Assembly (NCBI GenBank): GCA_944322725.1
Contig: CALUPU010000002.1
Span: 1-64,000 of the forward strand
Source: Candidatus Gastranaerophilales bacterium
Lineage (GTDB): Bacteria > Cyanobacteriota > Vampirovibrionia > Gastranaerophilales > Gastranaerophilaceae
Direction: 5' to 3'
DNA: 64,000 bases
The translations under genes were made by a program, and so were the position numbers. The notes beneath the pieces are model-generated. The model was not told where the DNA came from. It did not search any database and was given only the letters and a program-made list of their open reading frames with translations. Each line of letters opens with the position of its first letter. The stretch's first letter is position 1. This document shows positions 3,402-45,916 of this stretch, piece after piece.

Positions 3402-5354
3402 TTAGACTGTATAGTCTACCTTACCATTATGTTTTATTATTGTTTGAGTATTTTTAATTTCTCTTCCTTCTTCAGCTTCTGCTTCAGTTTCTGATGATGT
3501 ACTGTAGTCTGAAGTGTATGTTTGAGTATCTTTGTTAGAATGATTTGCCTGATTTTGACCGTTTTGCCGGTTTTCAAAAGACTGGTTGAACTGTTCTCTT
3601 TCAAAGTTCATTGCATTATTTGAAGACTCCTGCGAGCATTCGACTTTGATATTGTTCACGTTTACGCCTTGAGAACTCAGGTTAGATTTTAATGCTTCAA
3701 CATTTTTGTCAAAAAGTTCTTTCACCTGCTGGCTGTCTGTTGTCATTTTTGCAACAATACCGTCTTTTGAGTTCATAATCTCAACAGAAACTTTACCGAG
3801 ACTTTCAGGCTGCAAAACAATAGACACCTTGTTGTTACCCGACTGCTGCAATTGTTCAAATTTTGAACTTACCTGTGACATAATATCGCTCTGATTTAAA
3901 GTTTTTGCCTGATTTGAAGCATTTTTCATAGAATTCAGCTGAGCATCGAGTTTATTAACAAAAGTTTCTGCGCCTGTTATCTGGTTTTGGTTGACTGCAC
4001 TCTGGTCAACAGACAATTTTACGGCAGTTTCACCGGCATTTGTCATGTTTTGATTCATTGAAGAATTATTTTTCGTATTATTGTTGTTTGCGATTTTGGA
4101 TTCGGTTACTGTTGTATCAGTGTCCTGAAGCGCTGTCATTGTCTGAACAGCTTTATCTTTCACTTTTGAAGTTGTATCTTTATTTTCAATATTTGCAGAT
4201 ACATTTTCTTTTACCTGCGAAGCAACTTCCTGTGTCACTTTAATAGTCGGAACTTCCTGTGATTTTGTATCAGAAGGAGTAACCGGTTTTGCCTGTGTCT
4301 GCTCAACAGGCTGCTCTGCTGCTTGTTCAATATTAGCGGTTAACCTTGACGTATCTGCCGCAAGATTTTCTTTTGCAGTTTTCAAGTTCAAAGTCTGTGC
4401 ATTATTTATATTATCTGTAGTAGTTTTTTGTGTATTTGTATTTGTATTTGTATTCGTTTCTGTTTTTACTTCAATATCCTCTGCAGAAACTTCATGGGCT
4501 ATATTCTTTAACGAATCTTCAACTGTTTTTTGCAAAACAGTATTATTTGCAGCATTGGTTTGTACAGGCGCAGTTTCTGCGTTTGCAGAAGAATTTTTGG
4601 CAGTCTCGATTAACTTTTTCAACTCTTCAGGGTCTAAATTCTTTATTGTTTGAAGTTTTTCAAACAATTCCGCTTCATCCGAGTATTCAATATTGGCAAG
4701 AATCTGCTCGTTTGCTATCGAATTAGTATTTTGAACTGTATCAGTTGTTTTTACTGCTTCTGTTTTCGGCTGATTTTGTACAGATACTGTTTGTTCAACC
4801 GTATCAGAAATCACTGCTGTGTTATTTTGGATGTTTTCAAGAAGCTGCTCAACCGCTTTTAATGCCGAAGCACCAATTTCAGGTTTATTTGTTTTTTGTA
4901 TATCTTCCGTATTTTCATCTACTTCATTTTCTGAACTTATTTCATTATTATTTTCATTTTTATTTTTATTTTTATTTTGAGAAGCTTTGTCTGCAGGTGC
5001 ATTTTCCTTTACGGAATCATCGTTATCCTGAACTGTTTTATCAGTTGTTTTATCATCTTTTACCTGATAATTATCCTCTTCTTTTGGCTGAACTTTTTCG
5101 GATGAAGTTTCATTTTCTGTATGATAATCTTTTTGAGACTCTTTTATATCTTTGGTTTTTTGCGAATAATCCTTTTTATCTGAAATATTATCAGTTTTGT
5201 TTTCTGTTTTATCCATGTAGGATTTGGAAGCGTTATCAAGAGCAGAAGAAAATGCACCATCATCCATGTTTGTATAATCAGGTTTTGCAGATACGGTATC
5301 TGCCATCAGATTTGATGGAGAAATTTGTATTGATTGTGTGAATTCTGCTGTCAT
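3402..5354 (-). CDS. fliK: flagellar hook-length control protein FliK
   Basis: The 650-aa secreted molecular ruler sets hook length and switches the export gate to late substrates through FlhB. The recognisable part is the C-terminal Flg_hook domain (about residues 500-590) with VSIVLQPESLGKVSVEI, MTTDSQQVKELF and LKSNLSSQGVNV. The first 450 residues are low-complexity, rich in N, K, T, D, E and Q, as expected for the ruler part. Two stretches are encoded by hexanucleotide repeats (near 4430-4455 and 4953-4978) giving Asn-Thr and Lys-Asn runs. The ATG has AGAGGA about 11 nt upstream. Function is assigned by position between fliJ and flgD and by the C-terminal domain. Confidence 0.9.
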   Translation of the reverse strand: MTAEFTQSIQISPSNLMADTVSAKPDYTNMDDGAFSSALDNASKSYMDKTENKTDNISDKKDYSQKTKDIKESQKDYHTENETSSEKVQPKEEDNYQVKDDKTTDKTVQDNDDSVKENAPADKASQNKNKNKNENNNEISSENEVDENTEDIQKTNKPEIGASALKAVEQLLENIQNNTAVISDTVEQTVSVQNQPKTEAVKTTDTVQNTNSIANEQILANIEYSDEAELFEKLQTIKNLDPEELKKLIETAKNSSANAETAPVQTNAANNTVLQKTVEDSLKNIAHEVSAEDIEVKTETNTNTNTNTQKTTTDNINNAQTLNLKTAKENLAADTSRLTANIEQAAEQPVEQTQAKPVTPSDTKSQEVPTIKVTQEVASQVKENVSANIENKDTTSKVKDKAVQTMTALQDTDTTVTESKIANNNNTKNNSSMNQNMTNAGETAVKLSVDQSAVNQNQITGAETFVNKLDAQLNSMKNASNQAKTLNQSDIMSQVSSKFEQLQQSGNNKVSIVLQPESLGKVSVEIMNSKDGIVAKMTTDSQQVKELFDKNVEALKSNLSSQGVNVNNIKVECSQESSNNAMNFEREQFNQSFENRQNGQNQANHSNKDTQTYTSDYSTSSETEAEAEEGREIKNTQTIIKHNGKVDYTV

Positions 5355-6941: not shown

Positions 6942-7038
6942 AATTCCCCTGTCTCCTTCAATTTCCAATATTATGATAACATCCGCACAACTTTTTGTAA
7001 AAACATTAACGTTTTAATTCATATTGTCCAGAACATGG

Positions 7039-7066
7039 TTGACGCGTGACTTTTAAATGCTATGCT
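7039..7066 (+). promoter_or_regulatory. sigma70-type promoter of rpsO
   Basis: TTGACG at 7039-7044 and TATGCT at 7061-7066 are separated by 16 bp, about 75 bp upstream of the rpsO start codon. Confidence 0.7.
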
Positions 7067-7140
7067 AAATGTACAATAAATTTATTTTATTTAGTTTACG
7101 CCACCAACTTAAACTAATAGAATAAGAAAAGGAACACAAA

Positions 7141-7416
7141 ATGACAATAAACTTGGCAAAAGAAGAAAAAGCAGCAATCATCAAAAAATTCGGCAAAGAT
7201 GCTAAAGATTCAGGCTCTGCAGAAGTTCAAATCGCACTTTTAACCCAGAAGATTTCTGAACTTACAGAACACTTGAAAATCAACAAAAAAGATTTTCAGG
7301 GCAGACGCGGTCTTTTGATGATGGTTGGTCAGAGAAAAAGACTTCTTGCTTACGTTAAAAAACAAAACCTTGAAGAATACAGAGCACTTATTAAAAAACT
7401 CGGTATCAGAGGTTAG
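7141..7416 (+). CDS. rpsO: 30S ribosomal protein S15
   Basis: The 91-aa primary 16S rRNA-binding protein of the small-subunit platform is full length. The S15 signature is clear: [22 protein letters not shown] (split here as [11 protein letters not shown] and ISELTEHLK) and [23 protein letters not shown]. The ATG follows AAAGGA. It is a single-gene unit with its own promoter and a strong terminator. Confidence 0.98.
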
Positions 7417-7519: not shown

Positions 7520-9241
7520 ATGGGACGGAATAATTATAAAAATTATAAGAGTGATAAAGAGAAGTTTAAAGAATTTGATAAAAAGCTGATTTTCTGGCAG
7601 ATTCTGTGCATTCTTATATGCTTTGTCATAATCGGATATCTTTTTCTCGTAATGGTAATAGATGTCAAAAACTACCGCGCTCAGGCAAAACGCCAGAGAA
7701 GCGCCAAGAGTTTTGTTATGAGAGGCGCAATACTTGACCGCAACGGGATTAAACTTGCCTCTGACAAGACTTCATTTGACGTGTATGCCCATCAGGAGTA
7801 TTTTGACCATACACCTAACGAACTTGCTGCTATACTTGCACCGATATTGAACGTTAATAAGAATCAGCTTGCAAAAAAACTTGCTCAGGATGAAAAGATT
7901 ATTGTCTTGAAAAAAGACGTATCCCGTACAACCGCACTTGCAATAAGAAAACTGGGTTTAAGAGAAATAAGCCTCGGTAAAAAAAATGAACGTGTTTACC
8001 CACAGGGAACAATGGCGGCGCATATCTTAGGCTACTATAATGCGGATGCGGATGTTGCAGCAGGTATAGAACTCACGGCAAAAGATAAGCTGGAGGAAGT
8101 TGAACAGGATGTAAACTTTGAAAAAACACCTGACGGCGATATTATCTATGAAGTAAATACAGACCCTGCCGCCACAACAGCACCCTTAAGAGGTAAATCA
8201 ATCACTCTTACAATTGATTCTGCCATACAGCATGTGTGCGAGGTGGAATTAAATAAAGTCATCCGCGAAAAGGGTGCACTAAGGGGAACCGTTATTGTAA
8301 TGAACCCCAAAAACGGAGAAATTCTGGGGTATGCGGTTTATCCCTCATACAACCCTAATAATTATAAAAAAGCAACACTTACACAGCTTACTAACTGGAC
8401 ATTAAGCGATGTTTTTGAGCCCGGCTCCACTTTCAAAGTTCTTACCATTGCTTCTGCAATAGAAAACGGCAGACTGAACGAAAACTCCAGAATCCTTGAT
8501 ACGGGAAAACTCGATATAGATAAATGGACAATCAAAAACTATGACTATGCAACAAAACCGTTCCCCGGCAGCATAGACCTGTATTATTTGTTTGAACATT
8601 CAAGCAACGTTGCAAGCGCCAAGGCTGCATTGATGATGACAAAACAGGAACACTATAATGTTTTAAAACGTTTTGGTATAGGAGAAAAAACAGGCATTGA
8701 CTTACCCGGTGAATCAAGAGGTCTTATCCCGCCTGTAAAAGACTGGCACAAGTCGACACACGCTTCTGTCGGTTACGGCTACAGTATATCAGTAACAGCA
8801 ATACAAATGGCTTCTGCTATTTCTGCTATTGCAAATAACGGGGTTCAAGTAACGCCTCATGTAATTAAATATTCACCTGAAGAAGAAGCTGAAAAAATTA
8901 AACATACTCAGGTTATAAAACCGGAAACCGCACACAGCGTGACAAAACTTCTCGCAGGCAGTATAGACCGTTCCAAATCACCGGTTAACCTTGAAGATTA
9001 CCACGTAGCAGCAAAAACAGGTACGGCAAGAAAGTCATCAAACGGCGGCTATTCCAATAAGCTGGTAACATCTATTATCGGTTTTCTTCCTGCAAGCAAC
9101 CCGCAGGTGGAAATCTATGTCGTAATCGACTCACCTTCAAAAGGTGCTCTGTGGGGAAGCACGGTTGCAGCACCCGTATTTAGAGAAGTTGCGCTTCAAG
9201 CAGCGCGTATTATGAATATTGCTCCTGATAAGAAAAAATAA
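7520..9241 (+). CDS. ftsI: septal peptidoglycan transpeptidase FtsI / penicillin-binding protein
   Basis: The 573-aa class B penicillin-binding protein cross-links septal peptidoglycan. It has a single membrane anchor at about residues 24-48, a dimerisation domain starting at RGAILDRNGIKLA (68-80), and the transpeptidase domain with all three active-site motifs: SxxK as STFK (303-306), SxN as SSN (361-363) and KTG (499-501). There is no PASTA domain. No other ATG occurs near the start, so ATG 7520 is the start despite lacking a ribosome-binding site. The murE gene follows by 18 bp, a common division/cell-wall pairing. Confidence 0.95.
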   Translation: MGRNNYKNYKSDKEKFKEFDKKLIFWQILCILICFVIIGYLFLVMVIDVKNYRAQAKRQRSAKSFVMRGAILDRNGIKLASDKTSFDVYAHQEYFDHTPNELAAILAPILNVNKNQLAKKLAQDEKIIVLKKDVSRTTALAIRKLGLREISLGKKNERVYPQGTMAAHILGYYNADADVAAGIELTAKDKLEEVEQDVNFEKTPDGDIIYEVNTDPAATTAPLRGKSITLTIDSAIQHVCEVELNKVIREKGALRGTVIVMNPKNGEILGYAVYPSYNPNNYKKATLTQLTNWTLSDVFEPGSTFKVLTIASAIENGRLNENSRILDTGKLDIDKWTIKNYDYATKPFPGSIDLYYLFEHSSNVASAKAALMMTKQEHYNVLKRFGIGEKTGIDLPGESRGLIPPVKDWHKSTHASVGYGYSISVTAIQMASAISAIANNGVQVTPHVIKYSPEEEAEKIKHTQVIKPETAHSVTKLLAGSIDRSKSPVNLEDYHVAAKTGTARKSSNGGYSNKLVTSIIGFLPASNPQVEIYVVIDSPSKGALWGSTVAAPVFREVALQAARIMNIAPDKKK

Positions 9242-41546: not shown

Positions 41547-42827
41547 ATGAAAATTTACATCGAAGACATTGCACAATACGAAGGCAAAGAAATTACACTT
41601 CAAGCGTGGCTCTATAACAAACGCTCAAGCGGTAAACTCCACTTTTTGCAATTAAGAGACGGTACAGGAGAAATTCAGGCAGTTGTGTTCAAAGGCAATG
41701 TATCTGATGACGTTTTTGCTCTTGCAGATAAAATTACTCAGGAATCCAGCGTTGAAGTAACCGGTACAGTGAAAAAACACGACCGCTCAAAAATCGGTTA
41801 CGAAATCGATGCAACGGACGTAAAAGTAATCGGCGAATCCGTCGACTATCCCATTACTCCAAAAGAACACGGCACACACTTCCTTATGGAGCACAGACAT
41901 CTGTGGCTCCGTTCTTTAAGACAAAAAGCAATTTTAAGAATCCGTCACAGAATAATAAAATCTGTCCGCGATTTCTTTGATAACAAAGGTTTTACTCTCG
42001 TTGACGCACCGATATTCACTCCGAATGCATGCGAAGGAACAACAAACCTTTTTAAAGTAGACTACTTTGACGAAAACGCTTACCTCACACAAAGCGGCCA
42101 GCTTTATATGGAGGCTGCTGCAATGGCTGTGGGTAAAGCTTACTGCTTCGGTCCTACTTTCCGTGCGGAAAAATCAAAAACCAGACGCCACTTAACAGAG
42201 TTCTGGATGGTAGAACCCGAGGTTGCTTTCTTTGATATTTATGATGATATGGATTTAGCCGAAGAATTCGTTGAATACATTGTTCAAGAAGTTGTAAAAC
42301 ACAACCGCGCTGACCTTGAAGTGCTTGAAAGAGATATTTCAAAACTCGAAAACATCAAACGTCCGTTCCCGAGAATTTCTTATGACGAAGCTATTGAAAT
42401 CCTTAAGAAAAAAGGCAACGATACAGAATGGGGCGCAGACTTTGGCGGTGATGAAGAAACATTAATCTCGGAAGAATTTGATAAACCTGTAATGATTCAC
42501 CACTACCCGATGGCGATTAAGGCATTCTATATGAAGCAGGAAGGCGACAAAGCAGCCTGCGTGGATATGATTGCCCCCGAAGGTTACGGCGAAATCATCG
42601 GCGGAGGACAGCGTGAAGAAGATATTGATAAACTCAAAGCAAAAATCAAAGAACAGGGACTGCCGGAAGAAGTCTTCAACTGGTATCTTGATGTAAGAAG
42701 ATACGGAAGCTGCAAACATGCAGGCTTCGGTCTCGGTATTGAACGTACTGTTGCATGGATTTGCGGTCTTCACCACGTTAGAGAAACAATCCCGTTCCCG
42801 AGACTTATGGATAGAATGTATCCATAG
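41547..42827 (+). CDS. asnS: asparaginyl-tRNA synthetase
   Basis: The 426-aa class IIb synthetase charges tRNA-Asn. It has an N-terminal OB-fold anticodon-binding domain (1-100, with [22 protein letters not shown] split as LQAWLYN and HFLQLRDG). The catalytic motifs follow: motif 2 [20 protein letters not shown] and motif 3 [28 protein letters not shown] is typical of AsnS rather than AspS. GAGAGG precedes the ATG. The structured tandem repeat begins directly after its stop codon. Confidence 0.95.
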
Positions 42828-43004
42828 CGGAATTTGACGGGCGCGTATCAAAGAGAGCGTCCATGTGAGTCGGGACGGTGACTCCCGACGAACGTCAGTA
42901 TTCCAAGACGCGGAATCTGACGGGTACGCAGTGTGAACATAGTGAACCCAGTACCCATGTGAGTCGGGACGGTGACTCCCGACGAACGTCAGTATTCCAA
43001 GACA
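42828..43004 (+). repeat. two tandem copies of a structured element (83 and 94 nt)
   Basis: Copies are 42828-42910 and 42911-43004, and a third begins and stops at CGGAAT 43005. Their last 50 bases are identical but for one position. Each copy folds as a three-way junction. The outer stem is GGAAT-TGACG with CGTCA-ATTCC, the second hairpin is GTCGGGA-N7-TCCCGAC, and the first hairpin differs in sequence between copies yet stays paired (GGGCGC/GCGTCC versus GGGTAC/GTACCC). The first copy starts on the base after the asnS stop codon. Confidence 0.85.
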
Positions 43005-43092
43005 CGGAATGTAAATTTATCTTAATAAACTATCAAAAATATTAATGTCCGGTTTTATATCAGATGTTAATATTTTTGTCTCAGGAGAAAAA

Positions 43093-45719: not shown

Positions 45720-45916
45720 AAAACATATATAAATATATAGATTTAACCTTTGTGTAATGACATACAGAAAATTACTTTAATAACAATAAGTCCGATTTGT
45801 CTGAGGATTTTGAAACATAAAAAAATATTTCAAAATCCGAGTTATCGGACTCAAATTAAAGTTAGTTTCTGTTGGAATGAAACAGCAGGTTAAATCTATA
45901 TATTTATATATGTTTT
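45720..45916. repeat. 197-bp near-palindrome with 30-bp perfect inverted ends
   Basis: The left end (45720-45749, starting AAAACATATATAAATATAT) is the exact complement of 45887-45916. Further in, CAGAAA/TTTCTG, ACTTTAAT/ATTAAAGT, AGTCCGAT/ATCGGACT and GGATTTTGAA/TTCAAAATCC continue the pairing, leaving an A-rich loop of 14 bases at about 45816-45829. It occupies most of the 323-bp gap after yhcC. The rest of the gap (45917-46032) holds a second palindrome (TAATCTTTAT arms at 45932-45941 and 45948-45957) and a TATAAT at 45992-45997 likely used by the next gene. Confidence 0.8.

Follow-up and report, generated by a model that had tools for sequence, protein, structure and literature searches.

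What is the folded sequence that lies directly behind an asnS-type gene in a 64,000-nt stretch of Candidatus Gastranaerophilales DNA (contig CALUPU010000002.1, positions 1 to 64,000; hereafter the window), and does it belong to that gene or to something wider? The gene is followed, free of any gap, by two head-to-tail copies of one unit and a 6-nt stub (Table 1). The unit reads G-CGGRWT...AWTYCAAGAC-A, is about 83–95 nt long in the window copies and folds into a three-way junction, in which stem P1 pairs both ends, hairpins P2 and P3 lie inside and the AAGAC(A) tail is unpaired. A first-pass annotation of this DNA placed the start of the element on the base after the asnS stop codon and the start of a third copy at 43005. 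Judging from empty sites elsewhere (see below), the unit would instead begin with the last base of the stop codon itself (42827), and our covariance model R1 matches the window twice, not three times. The stub at 43005 is the left end of a third copy, since lost, and similar stubs were also found behind other arrays.

Table 1. Positions of the asnS-type gene, the two tandem units and their stems in the window.
Feature	Positions	Strand	Evidence
asnS-type gene, class II D/K/N tRNA synthetase, full length, insertion host	41547..42827	+	Pfam tRNA-synt_2 7.8e-73, tRNA_anti-codon 4.4e-18
asnS stop codon TAG	42825..42827	+	sequence
Copy 1 of unit, final A missing at tandem joint	42827..42909	+	R1 86.7 bits, E 1.7e-23 over 42828-42910 (copy among R1 training sequences)
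Copy 1 stem P1, 5' strand (GGAATTTGAC), pairs with 42894-42904	42829..42838	+	fold, covariation
Copy 1 hairpin P2 (GGGCGC/GCGTCC)	42839..42862	+	fold, covariation
Copy 1 hairpin P3: GU/AC base, tandem G.A (GUGA/GAAC), GTCGGGA/TCCCGAC	42865..42893	+	fold
Copy 1 stem P1, 3' strand, one bulged base	42894..42904	+	fold, covariation
Copy 1 unpaired conserved tail AAGAC	42905..42909	+	alignments
Copy 2 of unit, complete, final A present	42910..43004	+	R1 104.8 bits, E 6.3e-29 over 42911-43004 (copy among R1 training sequences)
Copy 2 stem P1, 5' strand, pairs with 42988-42998	42912..42921	+	fold
Copy 2 hairpin P2 (GGGTAC/GTACCC), longer loop	42922..42956	+	fold
Copy 2 hairpin P3 (GTCGGGA/TCCCGAC)	42963..42983	+	fold
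Copy 2 stem P1, 3' strand	42988..42998	+	fold
6-nt stub CGGAAT	43005..43010	+	sequence

The first-pass annotation had taken the differences between the two copies as direct evidence that the fold, not the sequence, is maintained. Its observations hold: the 3' halves are nearly identical (56 nt at 98% identity, spaced 94 nt apart), GGGCGC (42839–42844) pairs with GCGTCC (42857–42862) in copy 1 and GGGTAC (42922–42927) with GTACCC (42951–42956) in copy 2, and the differences between these stems are compensatory (C-G to T-A, G-C to A-T, and G.U to G-C). The changes are real, but P2 is a different module in each copy, with loops of 12 and 23 nt, and not one module with three point changes, so that the two-copy comparison alone is weak evidence for a kept fold. 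Compared with 200 dinucleotide shuffles, copy 1 and its flank have the better fold in 199 cases (z −3.15), the stretch containing copy 2 in 196 (z −2.48). Proof of a kept fold comes from the whole family rather than from the window pair. Two further inverted repeats were seen nearby, one perfect over 12 bp at 43034–43078, directly downstream of the array and upstream of the next gene, the other made of perfect 30-bp repeats 137 nt apart with internal palindromes (45720–45916), which looks like a separate MITE-type element.

The family was assembled from the window's own genome, a Gastranaerophilales MAG. An initial pattern search with one mismatch allowed returned mostly noise, the control exceeding the matches. 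A DNA search of this genome yielded further places, many of them, on reading, with a copy directly at a TAG stop; eight own-genome copies were aligned with MAFFT and given an RNAalifold structure to make R1. The model finds 16 places in this genome at E<=0.01 and 20 at E<=1, and four copies outside its training set (C8, C3, rplL copy 1 and atpE) score 47–59 bits. R1 matches are present in 33 of 59 relative genomes: the 23 genomes of the genus, the own one among them, are all positive, as are 10 outside it. Within the genus the number of matches per genome ranges from 3 to 54, with the caveat that MAG assemblies break at repeats. In a sample of the phylum, searched with stricter filters and 11 candidates scored per genome, 109 of 386 genomes had a match, and the positives listed were all of the same family, bar one of the same order. 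The four exact hits among named contigs all fall in Candidatus Gastranaerophilales MAGs. The element is thus dispersed and not confined to this locus. The first-pass annotation was right that the sequence behind asnS is structured; what it did not see is that it belongs to a dispersed, probably mobile, repeat and is not an asnS-specific RNA. Rfam held no family matching the element: the window gave only tRNAs, and six loci searched at E<=1 gave one weak match, below gathering score and outside the element. A description of such a family was likewise absent from the open PubMed Central papers searched. Short, non-coding, dispersed and highly base-paired, the element has these traits in common with MITEs. 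The near-identical halves of the window copies might be put down to chance inverted repeats and local duplication, a reading of negligible probability that is already refuted by hundreds of matches with covarying stems.

Covariation across the family is extensive. RNAalifold on the MAFFT alignment of the eight own-genome copies gave 25 pairs, 14 of them with double compensatory changes. Among 123 distinct copies (135 matches from 100 loci), double changes occur at 23 of the 25 pairs and 96.5% of 3058 stem cells are paired; covariation scores 0.673, where shuffles give 0.214 and slid structures no more than 0.140. The 123-copy alignment was fitted to the structure and hence leans toward it, a bias of which the MAFFT-based eight-copy result is free. 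Together these data show that the fold is under strong selection, as the first-pass annotation had claimed. Of the two outcomes that it had named as refuting, a lack of further copies did not occur, and unpaired stem changes in other copies are rare. Non-Watson-Crick stem cells comprise 79 G.T (31 of them from a single pair), 16 A.C and 92 others; that G.T lies far above A.C points to the strand as written, reading on from the stop codon, as the one that folds. The P3 frame, G-pyrimidine-G-A/T ... GA-purine-C (a GU/AC base with tandem G.A), was recovered by regular expression in 100 of the 123 copies. A topology of the hammerhead kind was weighed and set aside, its core letters being different. 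The family supplies dozens of natural compensatory variants per genome, and it accounts for structured intergenic RNA in gut Gastranaerophilales, which might otherwise be taken for regulators of particular genes.

Strong conservation of a fold on the sense strand would also fit a host-serving cis-acting RNA, namely a 3'-end or intercistronic element (attenuator, processing or stability) retained because it serves operons such as rpmJ-rpsM-rpsK and atpE-atpF, the more so as own-genome copies lie directly at the asnS, rpmJ, rpsM, rplL, groL and atpE stops in sense orientation. We regard this explanation as unlikely, however. The match number varies more than tenfold within the genus, most copies read in copy-rich genomes are away from stop codons, many in REP-like palindromes, and a single junction turns over among relatives. 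Across 30 loci of the rpmJ-rpsM-rpsK region, one spot carries different variants of the element, a second repeat type, remnants or nothing, depending on the species; such variation of presence and type at orthologous sites is a trait of selfish elements. Within the genus, the rpmJ stop reads TAG at every one of the 10 loci whose junction carries the element, and TAA at 7 of the 11 whose junction lacks it (by reading). Some filled rpsM sites read TAA-CGG, best explained by a later G to A change. The second repeat type starts at the TAG of rpsM or rpmJ in L098, L099 and L114 (GCCGG.GTGAAG... GCGACGTA... CTCCACAGGAGC) and is apparently structured.

Comparison of empty and filled sites, which this family makes directly available, defines how the unit sits in its target. 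Four host palindromes were seen in both states (CTGAAACA^AGTTCAG, GGGA^GAGGG, CATTCTGA^GCGCAGCG and GGTTGGGCATA^CCTGCCC), and in each the inserted unit is G-CGG...GAC-A (or G-CGA...), with no host base lost; three further hosts were seen in the filled form alone. The insertion point is directly 3' of an A, and no target duplication is longer than one shared A. This clean insertion after A departs from MITEs, for which a target site duplication is a criterion. At 118 distinct first-copy sites, position −1 is G in 114 and position −2 is A in 91, leaving 27 exceptions to the A^ rule. The landing places are most often loops of REP-like palindromes or the interior of TA^A or TA^G stop codons, along with positions behind some terminators. 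Flanks pair with each other through a stem of at least 7 at 24 of 80 single-copy sites, whereas 200 shuffles give 8.7 such sites on average and never more than 15. In genome G391, where the flanks are common to copy and host repeat, many copies may have been copied as passengers rather than by insertion. Palindrome loops of this kind also house two other types of element in G391 (L252, 339–413; L255, 779–866). At L064, L210 and L211, copies stand directly behind terminator T-runs (TTTTTTTTG-CGG) and have the right end CAAGATTTTT in place of CAAGACA; at L064, partial repeats continue after the T-run copy.

Stop codons mostly lack a palindrome and therefore form a second class of target. At 18 of the 118 sites, a TAG (17) or TAA (1) that closes an open frame of 60 codons or more falls exactly at the junction, against a mean of 0.19 and at most 2 in a shifted-position control; the 18 are not all independent, as some are orthologous (rpmJ, rpsM), and the array-internal filter behind this count also removed the own rpsM site. 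Of the 16 arrays in the own genome, 10 lie at such stops (asnS, rpmJ, rpsM, rplL, groL, atpE and four others), the arrays being a manual grouping of R1 matches at E<=0.01 and the gene names, except asnS, being given by eye from translations. Stop codons make up 0.9% of the eligible A sites of the window, which gives 10 of 16 a binomial probability of about 3e-17 if insertion into non-coding DNA is random and independent. Whether copies sit at stops, as the first-pass annotation had asked, is thus answered in the affirmative. At TA^ sites the unit's first G supplies the third base of an amber stop, which leaves the gene intact. Stop-codon readthrough was rejected because the frames after the 18 junction stops, open for 8 to 82 codons, share no common length. 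A copy inside a gene was also met: in L135 (6322–7677, the repeat part at about 7017–7260), two copies and a stub lie in frame within a long open reading frame.

The question of what moves the element led us to candidate enzymes. REPs carry GTAG or GGAG, and the left flank of the element is often xxAG ahead of a hairpin; the unit is moreover small, folded, intergenic and clustered, and a truncated RAYT-like gene exists in the own genome, all of which would suit a REPIN/REP-type repeat moved by a RAYT (Y1 transposase). This is nevertheless very unlikely, given that copy number and Y1 presence are uncoupled. Y1 transposases occur in 18 of 59 genomes, and none was found in eight genomes with 15–54 copies each (G018, G010, G007, G014, G003, G013, G035 and G040; the MAGs are possibly incomplete). 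An R1 match lies near one of the 11 Y1 loci, and seven of them carry another palindrome, GTTGGGC...GCCCAAC, which itself hosts the element. The RAYT-like gene mentioned above, a truncated Y1 transposase (L043, about 1480–1784; G000:C5:127737 on), has the palindrome GGTTGGGCATACCTGCCCAAC ahead of it.

Descent from a bridge-RNA IS110 element or a group II intron, as a non-autonomous derivative, was considered because AG stands at the joint (CT when read on the opposite strand) and because palindromes and terminators serve as hosts; many copies have AG at both ends, and copies stand behind T-runs. We give this little credence. IS110 transposases occur in 5 of the 59 genomes (in the genus, 1 of 23) and RVT_1 reverse transcriptases in 17 (in the genus, 3 of 23). 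Many copy-rich genomes lack them, and a reverse transcriptase was rejected as general driver. Nor is a 2-nt core general, since the right flank in G391 and in the GTTGGGCATA^CCTGCCC host is A then target, not AG; the joint is A^, not a 2-nt core with CT. No full-length element with these ends was seen around an IS110- or intron-type gene. A search of 16 genomes for Y2 (IS91-type) transposases returned none, the control likewise being without any match. The ends of the element pair over about 10 bp but vary in sequence, and among the end pairs 0.16–3 kb apart listed in 565 kb of loci no autonomous long form was recognised; those read (parts of L206, L064 and L135) enclose arrays, other repeats or coding region, with no transposase gene by eye.

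We favour, and consider probable, a reading in which these repeats of Gastranaerophilales form a new mobile family, short, non-autonomous and conserved in structure. Covariation, strand bias and loop targets lead us to infer that the folded strand is the substrate, with single-stranded DNA a likelier route than RNA. We postulate that a folded single strand (ssDNA, possibly RNA) would be recognised at its paired ends by an enzyme acting in trans and joined behind an exposed A, mostly in a palindrome loop or in the TA^ of a stop codon. Two units would have been acquired in tandem at asnS, probably without effect on AsnS. The family poses the testable question which enzyme serves an element whose occurrence matches neither that of Y1/RAYT nor that of IS110 or of retroelements.

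A bolder form of this proposal, which we hold to be distinctly unlikely, is that the folded strand inserts at an A^ exposed by biology rather than by sequence, namely in palindrome loops and in the ribosomal A site at stops, with joining at mRNA or translation-exposed DNA followed by fixation in DNA. RelE-type nucleases prefer to cut UAG between its second and third base (PMC2680264). Entry between bases two and three of UAA or UAG falls at the bond so preferred in UAG, and would suggest mRNA-level joining or DNA exposed in translation. Against this reading, most carriers in the genus show no reverse transcriptase. If true, it would be a new kind of mobile element, harmless by design as the stop codon is recreated.

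In lifestyle the favoured family, best filed as one of its own, resembles REPINs and BOX elements, although the defining REPIN tests that were run came out negative: several copy-rich genomes gave no cognate Y1 RAYT, and few Y1 loci have the element beside them. REPs and REPINs are short, non-autonomous and intergenic, form hairpins in ssDNA or mRNA, show compensatory changes and occur in clusters and tandem arrays, a REPIN being a conserved REP doubled in inverted orientation next to a RAYT (PMC3116915). Our element is like them in all but the last respect. Its ends, by contrast, are not a conserved REP, a three-way junction lies between them, its copies do not follow the presence of RAYT, and the RAYT-linked palindromes are landing sites. 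Pneumococcal BOX, RUP and SPRITE are described as modular, highly structured small interspersed repeats, likely parasitic and often downstream of genes, with terminal inverted repeats in BOX and RUP that resemble resident IS (PMC3049150). Ours too is modular, highly structured, interspersed, probably parasitic and often 3' of genes; IS-like terminal inverted repeats such as those of BOX and RUP were not found for it, and it differs from all three in that its target duplication is at most one A and in its preference for stop codons and palindrome loops.

Rickettsia palindromic elements can sit in frame within genes, as our element does in L135, the one clear case; their sequence, fold and host are all different. 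Integron attC sites and group IIC intron targets are recognised by single-strand structure over sequence, with hairpins or terminators as targets and with tandem arrays; the element has such targets and arrays too and would likewise be recognised by structure. RVT_1 is absent from most genus carriers. The combination of a three-way junction, near-complete covariation, clean A^ insertion and a preference for stops and palindrome loops is new to the literature searched. Pattern scans of viral contigs gave one contig, L242, a phage to judge by eye from its tail and capsid genes; it carries a relic of the element close to the stop of a capsid-type gene and one weak R1 match (3958–4083 and about 7690–7707).
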